DNA from: Nitrospina sp. | GTDB lineage: Bacteria > Nitrospinota > Nitrospinia > Nitrospinales > JACRGP01 | Reading direction: 5' to 3' | Length of the DNA stretch: 64,000 bases | Assembly: GCA_024648695.1 (NCBI GenBank) | Contig: JACAVV010000027.1 | Span: 1-64,000 of the forward strand | Shown here: in pieces, positions 20,985 to 29,945 of the stretch | Position numbering within the stretch: position 1 is the first letter of the stretch | Layout of the letters: each line of letters starts with the position of its first letter | The notes under the pieces: generated by a model | What the model was told of the DNA's origin: nothing | The model's database searches: none | The model's input: only the letters and a program-made list of their open reading frames with translations | Made by a program: the position numbers and the translations under genes

Positions 20985-21415
20985 TTAAAGAACAAAATCC
21001 TGCGCTACAAACGATTGATGACCGGATCCGCTTTGGAAAGTTTCTGCAGAGTTATTCGCTCCCCCCTGGCTGATTGCAACAAAATGGTCTTCACCCTCCT
21101 GCACAATCAAGGCTGATGGAGGCCACGTTATCAACATGGCTATTGAACATTTGCGAAATAGTAGCTTCGTTGCCCTCGCCATCTTGTAGGGTATGGGCAC
21201 TGTTGTTGGTGCCATCCTGATCAATATCAACATCGTTATTATCACCCGTTTGATCGACGTCGCCGGTGTTATCGGTTCCACTTTGCTCCACATCGGCCAT
21301 GTTTCCAGTGCCGTCCTGGTTGACCGTTGAACTATTGCCAGCGGCAAAAGGTGGGCCGGTGAACCACATTCCCGCTAACATAAAAATAGTCATTACCTTA
21401 GAAAACCTTTTTCAT
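20985..21415 (-). pseudogene. Short curlin-repeat (amyloid) protein gene with two frameshifts
   Basis: Reading from ATG 21415, which has a good AAGGAAAC ribosome binding site, gives MKKVF then a stop. Dropping one T near 21399 joins it to the next frame (KVMTIFMLAGMWFTGPPFAAGN), completing an ordinary signal peptide. The body consists of curlin units of 11 residues ending in Gln, such as DGTGNMADVEQ, SGTDNTGDVDQ and TGDNNDVDIDQ. Near 21120 the frame shifts again by one base, and the repeats continue (EGEDHFVAISQ, GGANNSAETFQ, SGSGHQSFVAQ) to the stop at 20985. Corrected length is 142 residues. It would be a minor or nucleating subunit beside the large curlin gene upstream. Either it is a decaying pseudogene or it contains two sequencing errors. 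The largest intact piece is 21091-21393. Confidence 0.75.
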
Positions 21416-21522
21416 CTCTGTTTCCTTTATGTTGACTTTAAATAATAAGAGTTAAAAACAATCCTGCTACCGCTCACTACTTCGTTGGAGAGAGGGTCTG
21501 ACTGAGGCTTCATTTATGTTTG

Positions 21523-21582: not shown

Positions 21583-23286
21583 CTAGTTTTGGGTGATCAT
21601 ACTAATGTTGCCACTACCCGCCTGGGAAACAACACTGCTATTATTCATATCATTCTGAGTGGTAATCGCTAAATGCGAATTGCCGTTTTGGTTGATTACC
21701 GCATCGTGAAGCCCAATATCATTTTGCTCAATTGTGGCATCACACAAAGAACAGCCGCTGTCTCCGCCCTGATTGATCGAGCCCTGGTTCTCGTCCGAAT
21801 TCTGATCCACAAAGGCAGTATTGCCCGTTCCTTCCTGATTGATGCTCGCGATATTGAACGATTGGCTTTTTTGATCCACCAAACCGTCATTCAATGCACC
21901 GTCTTGAATAATGAGTGCGTTGTTTTCAAAAGCTCCGTTGGTTTGGTCTATTATCGCCGTATTGCTTGGAAGATTAGATTCGTCTCCCGGACCCCACTGT
22001 TGAATATCTGCAATATTGTTAGAACCATCCTGATCAATCAGAGCGGAATTGGCAAAGTTGATCTGGAAAGCGCTGGCATCGTTACCGTCACCGGATTGAA
22101 AAATATCGGAAATGTTTTCCTCTCCAGCCTGCGTCACATTGGCCCAATGGGATTCCCCCGACTGGTCAATTAATGAATCGTTGCTGGGCGGAGTCGAATC
22201 AAAAGCCGTGCCACTTTGGTTGACATTTGCGGTGTGGTCGGATCCAACCTGAAAAATGTCAGAATTATCATAGCCGCCGGTTTGACTGACTCCCGCATTA
22301 TTATTCTCGCCAAGCTGGTTGATATAAGATGTATTATTGATTCCGTTCTGATTCACTCCGGCAGAATGCTGTTCTCCCTCCTGGAGAATCTCGGAGTAGT
22401 TTCCCTGGTCGATCAAATCGCCATTTTGATTAACGGAGGCATAGTTAAACCCATCCATTTGATCGATAACCGAAACGTTATATCCGTCAGTTTGATAAAC
22501 TTCGGAATAATTTTCCTCACCGGTTTGTACAACCGTCGATTCATTGTTGAATCCATTTTGATCCACCGTCACCTCATGCATAGACCCATCCTGCATGACC
22601 CACGAATTGTTACCGGGATCTAATTCATCTCCACTCTGGGTGATTGAAGCCTGGCTATTAAACCCGGATTGCTCCACAGTTGATTCATTATACCCGTAGG
22701 TTTGGATAACACTTGAAAAATGACTGTCATCCAATTGTTCCACCGTGGAGGTATTATTGAAACCGTTTTGGTCTATCACCGCGGAATTTCCAATGCCATC
22801 CTGGTTTAAATTAGAATGGTTCCCGGGATCGAACCCGTCACCACCCTGAGTAACCGTCGTGTTATTACTCGTTCCATTCTGAACGACTTGTGAAACATTA
22901 TATCCATCAATTTGTTCAACATCGATGGAGTTATCAATTCCTGCCTGGTCTATTTGTGACGCGTTGTTGAAACCATCCTGGACAACCGTCGCTGAATTAA
23001 TATCTCCTTCCTGAATGATGCCGGAATCATTGCCTGGAACAGTGCTGTCGCCTGACTGGGTTACATCGGAAAAATTGCTGATTCCAGTCTGGTCAATTGC
23101 AGAATCATTGCCATTATCACTTTGGTCGGTTAGGGCTTCGTTGTTATCACCTGTCTGAATAGTCGTTGCCGCGTTGCCAGCACCACTTTGCGTGGTAGTA
23201 CTAGTATTGCCTGCCCCAAACGCCAAACTGGTAATCAATACAACCATCCCTAGTGAAGAAGCTACAGCTTGGAATTTATTTTTCAT
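21583..23286 (-). CDS. Giant curlin-repeat (functional-amyloid-like) secreted protein
   Basis: A 567-residue exported protein made almost wholly of curlin repeats, several times longer than CsgA (about 150). After a signal peptide (residues 1 to about 24, LITSLAFGA end) I count 46 successive units. Most are 11 residues with the pattern xGxxNxAxVxQ (for example DGFNNASQIDQ, NGINNTSYINQ), the CsgA/CsgB strand-loop-strand signature that stacks into a beta-solenoid. Every sixth unit is longer (15-18 residues, with inserts such as FDPGN, LDPGN, STPPSN), giving a 70-73-residue super-repeat seven times over, plus four final units. The only cysteine pair (GCSLCD) sits in the seventh long unit. Strong AAAGGAGAG ribosome binding site. 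No csgG/E/F-like export gene is in the window. Probably an extracellular fibre or adhesin. Confidence 0.85.
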   Translation of the reverse strand: MKNKFQAVASSLGMVVLITSLAFGAGNTSTTTQSGAGNAATTIQTGDNNEALTDQSDNGNDSAIDQTGISNFSDVTQSGDSTVPGNDSGIIQEGDINSATVVQDGFNNASQIDQAGIDNSIDVEQIDGYNVSQVVQNGTSNNTTVTQGGDGFDPGNHSNLNQDGIGNSAVIDQNGFNNTSTVEQLDDSHFSSVIQTYGYNESTVEQSGFNSQASITQSGDELDPGNNSWVMQDGSMHEVTVDQNGFNNESTVVQTGEENYSEVYQTDGYNVSVIDQMDGFNYASVNQNGDLIDQGNYSEILQEGEQHSAGVNQNGINNTSYINQLGENNNAGVSQTGGYDNSDIFQVGSDHTANVNQSGTAFDSTPPSNDSLIDQSGESHWANVTQAGEENISDIFQSGDGNDASAFQINFANSALIDQDGSNNIADIQQWGPGDESNLPSNTAIIDQTNGAFENNALIIQDGALNDGLVDQKSQSFNIASINQEGTGNTAFVDQNSDENQGSINQGGDSGCSLCDATIEQNDIGLHDAVINQNGNSHLAITTQNDMNNSSVVSQAGSGNISMITQN

Positions 23287-23793: not shown

Positions 23794-25524
23794 TTATTTC
23801 GCTTTGCCTTCTGCGTACATCTTACGAGTACGTTTGGTCATCCATACTAACCAACCTTCCAGGCCGATAAAAATCAAAGCCATGATTGGAGGCATGTAGT
23901 AGATGGAATCCGGAATCGGAGGTTCAAGAATGGTATATACCCATGTAGAAATGGCCATTGTCTCATTCTTTTCTTTATTCCGTCCAGACCATTGCATAAA
24001 AGAAACAGGGATGAAAGATTCACTGGGAATCTGAATATCGGTTTCTTTATTTTCCGTTTCCAGGCTTCTTCGGAAAAGGATTTTTACCCTTCCCTGCTTG
24101 AAAATGGAATCTACAACTTCAACGGTCGGAGCCGTTTCTTTTGCTGTAAGAGCATCATAACCGTGACCAACTATTTCCTCCACACTTACATCCAGTTTAT
24201 AACCTTTTTCGTTTGGAGGATTTGTCGGACTATAGTCTTGAGCCAGGAAATTGGCTTTCCAAATATCTACAGGCTTTTTGGAATCGCCAAAAATAAAGTA
24301 CGGTTTTTCAGCCCCATATAGATCCTGGAGTTTACCAGGCCACTGGATAGCTACCGCATCTTTATATTCCGAATCTTGAGACAAAAAGCGGTTGTGGTAT
24401 TCAACCATATAATACACTGCTTTTTCGTCCGGACTCCATCTGCTTGACACCCAGAGATTATCCACTTTCGGTTTGAAATTTCTTTCACCACGAGTGATCT
24501 GGCCGCCCATAGCTATATAATGCTTTCTATTCAGGGTTCCAGGATAATCTTTAGGTTTGGTAACCCAATTTGGATCGTGATCCGGGGTATCCCACATTGG
24601 ATCATCCACCGAACGGGCAACCTCCCCTTCAGTATAAAGAGAACTGATCAAGAAATCCGTTACCGGCTTGTTGGTCAGCTTATCGATTTTCTTTCGGGGA
24701 CAAAGGGAATTAACGAATGCCGCCAATTTCCATCGATCCTCAACAGTAATCTGCTCTTTAAAGTTGGGCATTGGTGTTCCGTTTAAACCCGTAGAAATGG
24801 TTCTTACAATATTGAAAGGATTGTAAGGATCGCGCCGACTTCCACGGAAATTCCAGCACTGTTGCCAGTCCGCCGCTACGATCGGGAATCCCCAGTCATC
24901 TTTCATAGTGGGGTTACCATCTCCACGTCCTTCTCCGCCATGACACTCGAAACATTTATTTTTAATAAACACTTCGCGCCCAGCATCGATATCTGCCTGA
25001 GGGATACCGAGGTAAAGCTTTTGCCCAGGAATTTGTCCTTGATCTACAGACCAGGGCATTTGACCGAATTCCTGAACGTTAACTTCTTCATCTTCTGTAT
25101 CGTCAAAACTTCGATCCTGAACTAAAGTTTTAACAAAGTTTACTACAGCGATGACCTCGTCTTCACTCAAAACTTCACCCCAGGGCGGCATGGCTGAACC
25201 AGGGAGACCATTCTTTACGGTTCGAATCAGGTCAGCTTCCAAAGGAAGTTCACCGGAATCGGTGCGTCGAATTTTAAAAGTCCCTTGAATAAAGTTACGG
25301 GGGCGGGTGAACAAACGTTCTGCGGAAGGTCCATCACCACCGCCTTCTACACCGTGGCACCAGACACAACGGCGAAAATACACCTGTTTTCCTTTTTCAA
25401 GGAGATCCTTTTTTACTCCATCGGGCGGCTGAGGCGCCGCGAACACTGTCGAGGGCAAGAAAAACACCCCGAGCAATATCAGCGGAAGCATCAACAATCC
25501 GATTGATTTTTTATTAATTTTCAT
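23794..25524 (-). CDS. Diheme cytochrome c fused to an NxrC/EbdC-like heme domain, membrane-anchored
   Basis: Periplasmic electron carrier of 576 residues. A signal peptide (1-29) is followed by two class I cytochrome c domains with CVWCH (53-57) and CFECH (191-195) and likely Met ligands in SAMPPW and TPMPNF. Residues about 310-530 resemble the beta-sandwich heme-binding domain of ethylbenzene dehydrogenase gamma and nitrite oxidoreductase gamma subunits (SSRWSPDEKAVYYMVEY, DAVAIQWPGK, IPVSFMQWSGRNKEK). A C-terminal membrane helix (about 543-565) and a basic tail anchor it. Ribosome binding site GAGGAACA. Last gene of the four-gene operon, followed by a strong terminator. It could deliver electrons from a periplasmic oxidoreductase to the bd-like subunit. 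The domain assignment rests on pattern recognition, not a search. Confidence 0.78.
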   Translation of the reverse strand: MKINKKSIGLLMLPLILLGVFFLPSTVFAAPQPPDGVKKDLLEKGKQVYFRRCVWCHGVEGGGDGPSAERLFTRPRNFIQGTFKIRRTDSGELPLEADLIRTVKNGLPGSAMPPWGEVLSEDEVIAVVNFVKTLVQDRSFDDTEDEEVNVQEFGQMPWSVDQGQIPGQKLYLGIPQADIDAGREVFIKNKCFECHGGEGRGDGNPTMKDDWGFPIVAADWQQCWNFRGSRRDPYNPFNIVRTISTGLNGTPMPNFKEQITVEDRWKLAAFVNSLCPRKKIDKLTNKPVTDFLISSLYTEGEVARSVDDPMWDTPDHDPNWVTKPKDYPGTLNRKHYIAMGGQITRGERNFKPKVDNLWVSSRWSPDEKAVYYMVEYHNRFLSQDSEYKDAVAIQWPGKLQDLYGAEKPYFIFGDSKKPVDIWKANFLAQDYSPTNPPNEKGYKLDVSVEEIVGHGYDALTAKETAPTVEVVDSIFKQGRVKILFRRSLETENKETDIQIPSESFIPVSFMQWSGRNKEKNETMAISTWVYTILEPPIPDSIYYMPPIMALIFIGLEGWLVWMTKRTRKMYAEGKAK

Positions 25525-25574
25525 TGTTCCTCATTCCAATATTATTGAGATTAGAAAAATTAATTGTTAAATGA

Positions 25575-26552
25575 TTATTCCTTCACACCAACGATTGAAG
25601 ATTCATCATCGAAGGTTCGAGGATGCCAGCCGGTATACCAGTATTCGAAAAGAATAACTTTCCAAATTTGTTCCGTAGTCAGATGCTCTTCCCACGGAGG
25701 CATAGCGGAGGACCATGGAGTCGATTCGTTCGGCAATCCGGGTCCACCCTTAGATACACGCCAGAACAGGAAGGATTCCCGCAACATGGCAATGGTTCCA
25801 GGGTCTACAAAGTTTGCCGGAGTCGGGTTGAATACATGCGAAAACATACCCAATCCATTCAACTGATCCCCATGACAGTAATGACAATTCTGAAAAAATA
25901 CCGTTCCACCTTCCGTTACATTCTTCATATATTCCTGCTTATCGGCATCCAGGAAAGGAAAGCTTTTTTGATATTTATCCTGCTCGTCAATTCTGTAAGG
26001 ATTCTTTTGAGTTTCAAGCGTATAGGTTTTCCCATGCACCCGTGTAGTAGCAGGGGGGGCAGGGTGAACCGTACGCAACTCAACAGGCTCCTGGAATTTA
26101 GGGATTAAAGCTTTATAGGTACCAAAGCCTACCAAAATTGGAAGAGCCGCAAAAACGACGATTCTCGCCAATTTGTATTCCCCAATAATCATTTTAACAA
26201 TCGGCTTTCTAAACTCTCGGAAAGTTTCCTCATCCTGACTAATGAAAAGGAACGTACCGATAGACCACAACATCATGTAAGTGATGAACAAGGTCCAGGG
26301 AATGGGCGGATACAAAATAAATTTGTAAAAGTAAAAGCCCAAAGACCAAACCACCAAGGCATTTAACGATATGGGTGGCTTTAACCGCAATACAATATTT
26401 ACGATTATCAAAGTTGCGATAATACATAAGAAATACACGTAACGGTTAATCACCCATGTCGGTTCCTTGGGGGTGAAGATGGGGAAAACGCCCATGTGGA
26501 ATCCCACAAGCGTTCCCACAAACACCAGAAAACTTATAAACGTCTTATTCAT
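25575..26552 (-). CDS. Membrane-bound monoheme cytochrome c
   Basis: A 325-residue protein with five hydrophobic segments (about 5-26, 35-56, 63-82, 85-105, 130-150), then a periplasmic cytochrome c domain with CHYCH at 223-227 and a probable Met ligand in SAMPPWEEH. The SAMPPWEEHLTTEQIWKVILF stretch resembles the end of class I c domains seen in cbb3 and alternative complex III-type subunits. A GGAGGAATT site precedes the ATG. It sits between two other cytochrome genes with gaps of 29 and 50 bp, so it is surely co-transcribed. It likely takes part in electron transfer within a membrane complex; the exact partner is unknown. Confidence 0.8.
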   Translation of the reverse strand: MNKTFISFLVFVGTLVGFHMGVFPIFTPKEPTWVINRYVYFLCIIATLIIVNIVLRLKPPISLNALVVWSLGFYFYKFILYPPIPWTLFITYMMLWSIGTFLFISQDEETFREFRKPIVKMIIGEYKLARIVVFAALPILVGFGTYKALIPKFQEPVELRTVHPAPPATTRVHGKTYTLETQKNPYRIDEQDKYQKSFPFLDADKQEYMKNVTEGGTVFFQNCHYCHGDQLNGLGMFSHVFNPTPANFVDPGTIAMLRESFLFWRVSKGGPGLPNESTPWSSAMPPWEEHLTTEQIWKVILFEYWYTGWHPRTFDDESSIVGVKE

Positions 26553-26581
26553 TTATATAATTCCTCCTTATCCCCTTAGGA

Positions 26582-27901
26582 TTAACCTTCCTCAGGAGGG
26601 GCTTCAGTATTACTAATAAAGTCTACCAGCTTGTCAAGAGCCTCAACAGACAACATATTTTTGAAATTCTGAGGCATAACACCATCCGGGAACAATTCAC
26701 CTTCCGCTTCGTTCATAACAACATAAGCGCCAGGATCTAAAATAGATTCCCTTACATACTCCTTGGTATTAGTAGCCTTTCCTTCATATCGAGGATCCGC
26801 AATACGGTTAGGAGCATTAGTTTTTTCATGGAGTACAGGCCCTAATTCACCCACAGCACCTTCAACTCCAGGGATGGTATGACAAAGAGGACAACCCAAG
26901 GTATTGATCATGGCTTGGATATCTTCCGTACCCGTCACAAATATCGGTTTGTCACCTTCCTCCTCAGCAGGGGCTTCTTCAGCTTGAGCCGCTGAATCTT
27001 CCGCCGAAGGCAGAGGAACGGTCACCTTGGAAAAATCACCAGGAGTATCCTTGGATTGCAACCAGGCGATAACCGCGTTGACTTCAATAGGACTCAAACT
27101 GATAGGAGGCTTAACAATTACAGGCATCGGGCTTTTCGTATCTCCCGCCTTACCGTAACCCTTAACCACGTAACATGAAGGACATTCCAAAGATTCACGG
27201 ATATAGTCCTCACCGGTTTTAGCATACTTTTTAATACCGGAAGCAGGATCCGTTTCACCCACCTTAATAGGCTCATTCAAATATCGCTCTTCCTGGACAC
27301 GCGTGTGACTTCGCTCTTCAACACCAAACAAGTTGGGACAACGACCAATGTTATCACCAGGATCAAAAGTATGACAAAGAGGACATTGCCCTTTACCAAT
27401 AGCTTTTTGGCCAGCGACTTGTTTTGCGCCAAATACAATCACGCGTCCCATTTCAGCATAATCTTCCATGGTAATGTCGCCAGAAATCTGAGCTCCACCC
27501 TTGGGCGGAGGATCACTTCTCTGTTGCGGCAACCAGTTGGTATAACCGGCCAATAAAAGACCGACCACCAGCCAGAAGAATGCCGCTCTAATAAGTGGCG
27601 GCGACTGATCTTCAATCTGGGCACTTTTGAAAAATATACCCCAGACCAGAAGGAGCAGAAAAATTACCCCAACCTGAGTCCAAATGAAGATCAACTGCTC
27701 TCCTTGCACCAAAGTGAACATATGCCTGGTGCAAAGAAAACTAATGAAGACGAAACCCCCAAATATGGAACCCCATAATTTGGTGTTTATACCTTCCTGC
27801 TCTCTGCAATGTTTGATTACATTAATAAATGCAATCACCGTAAATACTGTGAGCATTATTGTCATAAATGTCCACAGTATGTCGTGCTGCTCTGGTAGCA
27901 T
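26582..27901 (-). CDS. Membrane-bound diheme cytochrome c with a divergent CPSCY motif
   Basis: A 439-residue protein with four membrane helices in the first 125 residues, then two cytochrome c domains with CPLCH at 173-177 and CPLCH at 337-341. In the first domain the position that usually reads DPSAYV is ECPSCYV (C240, C243, Y244), an extra cysteine pair that is not a normal heme-attachment motif. The two domains are joined by a Glu/Ala/Pro-rich linker (about 300-318). Each domain has a likely Met ligand (SPMPVI, GVMPQNF). AGGAGAAAGG ribosome binding site. Second gene of the operon, just after the bd-like subunit. Confidence 0.78.
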   Translation of the reverse strand: MLPEQHDILWTFMTIMLTVFTVIAFINVIKHCREQEGINTKLWGSIFGGFVFISFLCTRHMFTLVQGEQLIFIWTQVGVIFLLLLVWGIFFKSAQIEDQSPPLIRAAFFWLVVGLLLAGYTNWLPQQRSDPPPKGGAQISGDITMEDYAEMGRVIVFGAKQVAGQKAIGKGQCPLCHTFDPGDNIGRCPNLFGVEERSHTRVQEERYLNEPIKVGETDPASGIKKYAKTGEDYIRESLECPSCYVVKGYGKAGDTKSPMPVIVKPPISLSPIEVNAVIAWLQSKDTPGDFSKVTVPLPSAEDSAAQAEEAPAEEEGDKPIFVTGTEDIQAMINTLGCPLCHTIPGVEGAVGELGPVLHEKTNAPNRIADPRYEGKATNTKEYVRESILDPGAYVVMNEAEGELFPDGVMPQNFKNMLSVEALDKLVDFISNTEAPPEEG

Positions 27902-27959
27902 TTACCTTTCTCCTCTCTCTAACACGTAATTAAAACTAGAAACTATTTCTAATTCACGA

Positions 27960-29945
27960 TTATTGCTGTTGCTGAGCAGGAACAGGAACGCCTTCGGGCA
28001 CAGCTTCCTTTTTCTCCACAGCTTTTTTACCTGTAAGACTACCAACCCAAAATACAATGATAAACTGAACCCATACAAACAATGTATTGAAGGTCAAAAT
28101 CTTTCCAGCCTCACCAATGGTCAGCGTGTAAGCATCAGCGGAGTTATCACGAACAACTTCCGTTACGTGCCAGAACAAGCGAACCGCTGAACGGATATAA
28201 CCCATCAGACCCATCAACCAGGTAAAAGAAATAGCCAACATAAAGATTGCGTAGGTTCCAACCTTGGATTGGGTTCCCCACTTGATTTCACCATAGGATT
28301 CTGAATCCTTAAACATGGAAATGTTGATTGCCGTTCCAGCAAACAGAGTGGTCAGGGTAGAACTTACCTGAGGAACTGAAAGACCAACACGTTGGTTTGC
28401 AGGAAGGAAATAACCATAAACACCCAGGAAGATGATGTTTACCGCGGCCCAGAAGAAGATGGCGGCGATACAACAGTTACCCAGGGTTTGCCAGGGTACA
28501 GTGATTTTCTTGTTCGCCTTCTGGTACAACAAGAAACACAAAATCGTACAGGTGATCATCAAATTCACAGCGGTGTTTTTAGCAGACATAACACCAAAGT
28601 GACCCACGATCGGATGCTGAGCTCCCCCCATCGCCTTCAACTCCGCAGGAGTCATAACGATAGTGTGAGGCGTCATCCACATGGTAAAAGCAACAATCAA
28701 TAGCAACACCATGAATTTACAATACTTCATATAACGGTGAGCCCCCGCTACCCGCGACATACTATTATGCAGATACGAGTTCGCACCGAAGAACAGCAAG
28801 CCGATCATCACAGCCTGAATGATGAACAACCATGCCATAATTCCACCCATCAAGGTGATTCCCATTTGCTGACGGAATGCATACACTTCCTTCATCAACC
28901 AGTAACCCGCGAAAGGCAGGGGAATCAAACCAAAGATTGCGATAAACATCGCCACGTAACATACCCAGTCGTAATGCGCTTTTTCTTCTTCCGTTTTAGC
29001 ACTGAGATAATGATACGCCGCGTAAGCACCAACGATACCACCACCGAAAACGATGTTACCCAGGATTCGGTGAACGCCTACCGGATTCCAAAGAGTGGAA
29101 TGAATTACGTGCCAGATATTACCCAGGAAACGCCCTTGCTCATCAATACCGCCAGGAGCTTGCATGAAGGTCGCCCAGGAGTTTGCCAAATACATCAATA
29201 CCGTTCCGATGAGGTTCAACAAAACGGAAAGACTACAATGAACCCATTTCATAAAAGGATCTTGACTCATTCTGTCCCAACCATAGTAGTAAACATAAAG
29301 CACACCACTTTCAGCCAGGAACATCAAAGCATAAACATGCATTACCGGTCGGAATATTCCGGCCATGTACTTAAAGAACCCAGGGAACAAGGTGATAAAG
29401 GTAAACAGCAAAATACCACCCAAAATAGCCGTCCAGGAATAAGCGGTCAAACTGATTTTCATCAGGTCATGGGCCAACTTATCGTATTTGGAAGCCAGCA
29501 CAGGATCGGAATCCCTGGTACGAATACCAATGAATTCAATCACCATACAAAAGATCGGTACCGCCAATACAAAGCTTCCGAAATACAGATGCTGTTGATT
29601 GGCAATCCAGATGATAATTCGACTGGGAGCAAAGGAATAGGTGTTGTAGTCACTGTCTTCCAGCTCGGGAGCCGGATAACCACTTACGATACCCTTCAGC
29701 GGATTACCTTCCCAATCCTTATAAAATACGTCATTACTCCATTCTACTTCAGGCTCACCCTCGGCAGCGGCTTCGGCTTCCTGAGCACTCACTTCTTTAG
29801 CAAATGCCTCTTCTGCAAATACGCTTTCAGCAAACGCTTCTTTGCCATAAGCGGTATCTGTCAGACTAGGGATCAACAATACCGAAATCGCGAATACAAA
29901 CATCCAGGGTAGTCCCCAAAACTGCTTTCTATGGTTCCCCAACAT
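27960..29945 (-). CDS. Cytochrome bd-like oxidase subunit (CydA-related) with signal peptide
   Basis: A large integral-membrane protein of 661 residues with about 14 hydrophobic segments. An N-terminal signal-like segment (13-33) and a charged Glu/Ala-rich stretch precede the core. The core block IIIWIANQQHLYFGSFVLAVPIF, then a histidine-containing series (PVMHVYALMFLAESGVLYVYYYGW, WHVIHSTLWNPVGVHRILGN), resembles the bd-like oxidases described in nitrite oxidisers rather than classical CydA. No CydB-like partner is adjacent; three cytochromes c follow instead. It may reduce oxygen, or it may be the quinone- or heme-bearing core of a different complex. Strong AAGGAGG ribosome binding site; first gene of the operon. 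Confidence 0.75.
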   Translation of the reverse strand: MLGNHRKQFWGLPWMFVFAISVLLIPSLTDTAYGKEAFAESVFAEEAFAKEVSAQEAEAAAEGEPEVEWSNDVFYKDWEGNPLKGIVSGYPAPELEDSDYNTYSFAPSRIIIWIANQQHLYFGSFVLAVPIFCMVIEFIGIRTRDSDPVLASKYDKLAHDLMKISLTAYSWTAILGGILLFTFITLFPGFFKYMAGIFRPVMHVYALMFLAESGVLYVYYYGWDRMSQDPFMKWVHCSLSVLLNLIGTVLMYLANSWATFMQAPGGIDEQGRFLGNIWHVIHSTLWNPVGVHRILGNIVFGGGIVGAYAAYHYLSAKTEEEKAHYDWVCYVAMFIAIFGLIPLPFAGYWLMKEVYAFRQQMGITLMGGIMAWLFIIQAVMIGLLFFGANSYLHNSMSRVAGAHRYMKYCKFMVLLLIVAFTMWMTPHTIVMTPAELKAMGGAQHPIVGHFGVMSAKNTAVNLMITCTILCFLLYQKANKKITVPWQTLGNCCIAAIFFWAAVNIIFLGVYGYFLPANQRVGLSVPQVSSTLTTLFAGTAINISMFKDSESYGEIKWGTQSKVGTYAIFMLAISFTWLMGLMGYIRSAVRLFWHVTEVVRDNSADAYTLTIGEAGKILTFNTLFVWVQFIIVFWVGSLTGKKAVEKKEAVPEGVPVPAQQQQ

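Follow-up and report, generated by a model that had tools for sequence, protein, structure and literature searches.

Evidence for a Selected Three-Turn Super-Repeat in a Family of Curlin Paralogues from a Nitrospina Genome

Introduction

In the usual view, curli are built of stacked, nearly equal turns, and only the number of turns varies. The window analyzed here, a 64,000-nucleotide stretch of contig JACAVV010000027.1 from a Nitrospina sp. assembly (GCA_024648695.1), contains a gene whose many short repeats appear to be grouped in sixes. A preliminary description, made from the letters alone, took this group of six (hexad) to be the evolutionary unit of a giant curlin with loops protruding every six turns. 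This locus raises the question of whether a curlin can carry an ordered pattern above the level of the single repeat, and whether such a pattern is kept by selection.

Repeat Units and Six-Unit Period of the Window Gene

The open reading frame at 21583-23286 (minus strand, as are all features of the window given below) is intact and encodes 567 amino acids. The curlin family (PF07012) matched its product over 12 stretches, with 141.4 bits against a cut-off of 20.7. The nearest sequence with a solved structure was 8c50, a curlin (E = 4.9e-23), and the curli major subunit (8enq/8enr) was matched with E = 1.4e-4. Judged by these similarities, the window protein is a curlin, a known kind of protein. 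As published curlins span 4–62 repeats (PMC10192328), its 23 repeats do not justify the word "giant", which we have dropped.

After a signal peptide, the protein has an N-terminal cap (five short units), then six hexads and a C-terminal cap. The apparent Sec signal peptide (23215-23286, MKNKFQAVASSLGMVVLITSLAFG), read from the sequence, is close to the consensus of the paralogues described below (MKKQFLAVASVISVGVFVTSxAFA). The N-terminal cap (units 0–4, 23056-23217) is without a long unit. Each hexad begins with a long unit. The first four hexads are 70 residues (210 bp) each: hexad 1 (22846-23055, long unit SGDSTVPGNDSGIIQ, with a DGFNN and a DGYN unit), hexad 2 (22636-22845, GGDGFDPGNHSNLNQ), hexad 3 (22426-22635, SGDELDPGNNSWVMQ), and the diverged hexad 4 (22216-22425, NGDLIDQGNYSEILQ). 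All four matched a 70-residue profile of the hexad (A1) from end to end, with 98.8 (positions 1–70), 103.5, 87.6, and 71.7 bits, respectively, two of the four being rows of A1 themselves. Hexad 5 (21997-22215, 73 residues, SGTAFDSTPPSNDSLIDQ, 55.8 bits) is of a PPSN type and hexad 6 (21769-21996, 76 residues, WGPGDESNLPSNTAIIDQ) of an xPSN type. These are followed by a long unit with a cysteine pair (unit 41, 21724-21768, GGDSGCSLCDATIEQ) and by the C-terminal cap (units 42–45, 21586-21723), which ends in ISMITQN. The mature chain is acidic, with 77 Asp/Glu and a single Lys/Arg.

Segmentation at conserved glutamines yielded 46 units, as had been counted before. Units of 15–18 residues were exactly 5, 11, 17, 23, 29, 35, and 41 (counted from 0), and three other units (36, 38, and 42) had 13, 12, and 12 residues; both observations agree with the preliminary description. 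The probability that 7 of 46 units form an arithmetic progression of step six is 1.9e-7 (2.9e-6 for any step). The conserved positions within the hexad were likewise borne out: units 7, 13, 19, and 25 start with DGFNN, NGFNN, NGFNN, and NGINN, and units 9, 15, 21, and 27 contain GYN, GYN, GYN, and GYD.

Self-comparison of residues 34–430 recovered the 70-residue period that the earlier reading had predicted. The best shift was 70 (36% identity), followed by 140 and 210, and shifts of 22 and 11 were lower (25% and 24%). The value at shift 70 was equaled in none of 5,000 shuffles of unit order and in none of 5,000 in which only the 11-mers were shuffled and the long units kept in place. When strand parity was also preserved, 22 of 5,000 shuffles equaled it, implying that the signal beyond loop spacing and strand alternation is real but moderate. 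Loop spacing thus accounts for most of the signal in this diverged family member, and the DGFNN and GYN units add a moderate excess. The alternation of S- and A-type strands (see below) was significant in the window protein (P-value = 0.003).

A short curlin-repeat gene lies downstream (20985-21420). Its reading frame shifts twice, first in the signal peptide and again near 21090; the gene is apparently broken, either as a pseudogene or by an assembly error. On the other side, the adjoining region (23794-29945) encodes subunit I of a cytochrome bd-type oxidase as well as three c-type cytochrome proteins, among them one with a weak match to the heme b subunit of type II DMSO reductases (E = 1.3e-9). 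CydAA' is known to be conserved in Nitrospinota (PMC10839748).

A Family of Hexad Curlins in the Genome

Thirteen curlin genes form a 19-kb tandem array on one strand of another contig (C1:292713-311735; loci L009 and L010) of this 4.2-Mb genome (56 contigs). PGN or PPSN hexads were found in 8 of the 13 array genes, all complete, in the window gene, and in a gene truncated at the end of contig C39; nine complete proteins of this genome therefore contain the hexad. A profile search gave 74 matches to A1. Further curlins occur at C1:345 kb and on contigs C3, C55, and C56, bringing the total to approximately 20 genes (the broken short gene included), while up to 30 have been reported in published genomes (PMC10192328).

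The hexad proteins have in common a signal peptide, a five-unit cap, and a variable number of hexads; in most of them, the C-terminal cap contains a Cys pair and ends in xITQN. This pair, a CxxC, sits in a long unit of the cap and has no His after it; sister families have a CC pair at about the same place.

One array protein (L009:5810-7504) initially appeared to have a period of seven units. This was a product of splitting a 34-residue unit, and the period was six after merging. In the same protein, unit 4 of successive hexads carries a large loop rich in aromatic residues; there are four such loops (in units of 26–34 residues), all different from one another, and they would lie on the edge opposite the PGN loops. 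In addition, the second gene in each array, here and in sister families of the phylum, encodes a small and conserved curlin that carries a basic insert (e.g., KKKNKAQK or RKERRSQR), located beside a curlin of 360–410 amino acids (L010:3063-3608, L052:5026-5502, L053:9787-10263, L055:4311-4820, and L056:2902-3384).

Strand Geometry and a Decorated Edge

A curlin repeat comprises 23 ± 5 residues and forms one solenoid turn by a strand-arc-strand arrangement (PMC10192328). Since the canonical repeat of 22–23 residues contains two strands, the 11-residue unit (33 bp) corresponds to one strand, or half a repeat. A hexad is thus equivalent to three turns, and the loops, previously placed every six turns, would recur every three.

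In the 39 hexads compared across the genome, an N-x-S motif marks units 1, 3, and 5 (Ser in 33/39, 33/39, and 26/39) and an N-x-A motif marks units 2, 4, and 6 (Ala in 38/39, 32/39, and 32/39), an alternation stronger than that in the window protein alone. The two kinds of strand suggest two sheets. The consensus of the 70-residue block is xGDxxxPGNxSxVxQ, followed by DGFNN and DGYN strands that alternate with plain strands. As six is an even number, the long loops should all come to lie along a single edge of the solenoid. The extra residues precede an S-strand, and so do the DGF and DGY turns; strand order therefore suggests that all three special arcs (PGN, DGF, and DGY) are on one edge. 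With a rise of 4.8 Å per turn (PMC10192328), loops would be spaced by approximately 14 Å and the monomer would be approximately 11 nm long.

Block Duplication and Selection

Tandem Repeats Finder detected periods of 210, 213, 219, and 273 bp in the DNA of the paralogues, with matches of up to 85%; unlike them, the window gene gave no tandem repeat at the DNA level. These repeats, together with the presence of the hexad in nine complete proteins, support the earlier proposal of an approximately 210-bp block as the evolutionary unit. In the most regular genes, PGN hexads are closest to other hexads of the same protein. By comparison, PPSN and SIPSN hexads are closest to hexads at the same place in other proteins; hexads 5 and 6 of the window protein follow this rule, being closest to PPSN and SIPSN hexads of other paralogues, respectively. 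This difference in kinship indicates that the block is the copied unit and that the C-terminal pair is older and fixed. As the hexads of the window protein are nearest to those of other proteins, expansion of the window gene was not recent.

Such copying by itself might account for the pattern: the protein could be an ordinary curlin in which the hexad is a mere relic of the copying of 210-bp segments, its loops and turns having no role. The DNA-level repeats of the paralogues would fit this explanation. In addition, repeat number often varies in curlins (PMC10192328, PMC12822426), arc insertions elsewhere have no known role, and in the window protein taken alone the excess over parity-preserving shuffles is moderate (22/5,000). 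A neutral relic, however, should have lost the pattern once silent sites were saturated. When PGN hexads of different proteins were compared (337 pairs), silent differences were near saturation (pS of 0.73–0.89 by group; 0.85 at hexad-specific columns). The pN was 0.11 at hexad-specific columns, whereas the corresponding columns of plain units gave 0.58. Because the letters of the long unit were fixed by the hexad search pattern, the independent evidence is limited to units 3 and 5. There, pN was 0.20, 0.00, 0.21, and 0.00 for DGFN (unit 3) and 0.14, 0.19, and 0.35 for DGY (unit 5), that is, 0.00–0.35 against the plain-unit average of 0.58 at a pS of about 0.8. The inward core columns (N/S-A/V/Q) had a pN of 0.08 and the outward columns 0.62; in the closest pairs, dN/dS was 0.22 overall, 0.07 inward, and 0.33 outward.

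Conservation of hexad-specific residues at saturated silent sites implies that the pattern is kept by selection, and we consider a relic without function unlikely. Based on these sequence comparisons, the three-turn super-repeat of this curlin family is real and selected.

Subunit Type, Export Genes, and Predicted Fold

The genome contains one gene each for csgE, csgF, and csgG (PF10627, PF10614, and PF03783), which are adjacent on contig C23. Neither the window gene (C16) nor the array (C1) is linked to them. Linkage to the csg operon is common but not universal, and we did not take it as a defining requirement for a curlin.

A second alternative is that the window protein is a nucleator (CsgB-like) or an accessory subunit instead of the main fibre subunit. 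Its score with the NCBIfam model of CsgB (NF007506) is above the cut-off (200 vs. 165), while its CsgA score is below (113 vs. 160). The CsgB score is inflated by eight stretches: the models derive from short proteins, and many repeats add up when a whole protein is scored. We therefore did not count it as membership and did not accept a CsgB identity on this ground. Furthermore, CsgB homologs are less variable in size (PMC3521004), whereas 23 repeats are present in the window protein, which has at least nine paralogues. A CsgB-like or accessory role thus appears improbable, more so than a relic.

The predicted long solenoid, which in a curlin should be left-handed and of two sheets, was examined by AlphaFold2 (AF2) modeling. 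A fragment of two hexads, modeled with nine alignment rows, showed 12 regular strands of about seven residues (pLDDT 77, pTM 0.71), joined by turns of four residues and, at the inner long unit, of eight. The full-length mature protein modeled without an alignment reached a pLDDT of only 34 and was discarded. Foldseek found no solved structure matching the two-hexad model at E <= 0.001, curli included, and the TM score to E. coli CsgA was only 0.22. Sparse alignments often yield right-handed, incorrect AF2 models of curlins (PMC10192328), and wrong handedness from this source may explain the missing match. Several beta-helical ice-binding proteins and pectate lyases were among the weak matches of the model (E of 0.2–2), but an identity as a surface beta-solenoid that does not form amyloid (e.g., an adhesin or an ice-binding protein) is highly improbable in view of the strong match to the curlin family and to solved curli sequences, the tight selection on curli-type inward residues, and the presence of csgEFG.

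Comparison with Other Curlins

The closest known counterparts are the centrosymmetric CsgA-like curlins (R15.5 of Pontibacter korlensis; 8c50), which also have N-x-(S/A)-x-V-x-Q strands every 11 residues and are also long, acidic, and rich in repeats (PMC10192328). R15.5 is near-isomorphous between turns (PMC10192328), whereas the window protein has three kinds of turn in a fixed order, with a loop at every third turn. Protruding arc insertions are present in "degenerate" curlins as well (Sediminicola sp. YIK13 A0A0S1S4K2 and Roseovarius indicus A0A0T5PAS6; PMC10192328). In contrast to these, the core strands of the window family are intact, and its insertions are fixed in size class, GD...PGN motif, six-strand spacing, and edge, throughout the family. 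E. coli CsgA/CsgB (8enq) share the repeat family and the CsgE/F/G accessory proteins; unlike the window protein, they have five repeats, no super-period, and an N22 targeting segment. Therefore, the contrast with known CsgA drawn in the preliminary description holds for the strict spacing and the conserved edge pattern, but long curlins and arc insertions were already known (PMC10192328). Ordered decoration of one edge is new to the literature searched, in which no paper naming both Nitrospina and curli was found.

To see how far the pattern extends, we searched related genomes, as had been suggested. None of 76 other genomes of the phylum, which include no other species of the genus of the window, had an end-to-end match to A1; in relatives, the match began at about position 6–9 or covered less, and the full loop was missing. 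Nor was the full block found in samples from two further phyla, those of L016 (Flavobacterium; 396 genomes) and L017 (Methylobacterium; 399 genomes), each of which gave one partial match. A sample from another phylum included an 862-residue curlin (L064:1664-4252) of 69 units with an irregular pattern of long units, located beside csgF/csgG-like genes.

Sister families within the phylum (L052–L056) also have tandem arrays of curlins (230–550 amino acids), many with C-terminal cysteines, and their first two array genes are similar to those of the window genome. The arrays in L052, L053, L055, and L056 adjoin csgF/csgG-like genes, whereas the array of the window genome is away from csgEFG. The sister families are without the PGN hexad, although one set of orthologs (541–548 amino acids) shows a weak six-unit signal (z of 3.0–3.9). 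As a yardstick, lag-6 z values from parity-preserving shuffles were calculated for 52 other curlins of at least 18 units. Four of these reached 3.0–3.9, three of which look like sister-family orthologs, suggesting that a weak three-turn tendency may exist elsewhere. The window protein had a z of 3.4, and two of its paralogues reached 9.2 and 9.3, a much stronger hexad signal. No regular loop spacing was found among the 52.

Proposed Role of the Three-Turn Block

The explanation that we consider probable is that the window gene encodes a curli-type fibre subunit: a two-sheet beta-solenoid built by duplication of a three-turn block that bears a conserved decorated edge. The gene product would be exported by Sec and then through the CsgG/E/F channel of this genome. 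It would stack as a two-sheet solenoid of approximately 23 turns, with one strand per 11-residue unit and the odd (NxS) and even (NxA) strands forming the two sheets. The 70-residue hexad, a three-turn block in this scheme, has spread by duplication of segments of about 210 bp within and between genes of the family. Each block would present, in order, three arcs leading into S-strands: the GD...PGN loop, the DGF turn, and the DGY turn. One edge of the fibre would thereby repeat the pattern at a spacing of three turns (with 4.8 Å for each turn, about 1.4 nm), while the other edge is variable, and the patterned edge may act as a contact or binding surface. It is tempting to speculate that GD...PGN has a role in calcium binding.

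A further possibility, which we put forward tentatively, is that this edge works like a ruler: the loop, the Phe turn, and the Tyr turn, presented every three turns (about 1.4 nm), would dock neighbouring fibres, ions, or a ligand in register, and the ten hexad genes would supply interchangeable subunits that differ in block number and display loops.

If the proposed geometry is correct, selection keeps three different turns in a fixed order, with all that sets them apart placed on one edge and held in register across as many as six blocks, so that the amyloid core would be separated from an addressable edge. Such an edge would be a built-in fiducial for cryo-EM, missing from plain curli, and may offer a natural template for regularly spaced groups on an amyloid fibre. 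In this organism, a probable marine nitrite oxidizer, curlin genes multiply on two scales, through blocks inside a gene and through whole genes in the array.
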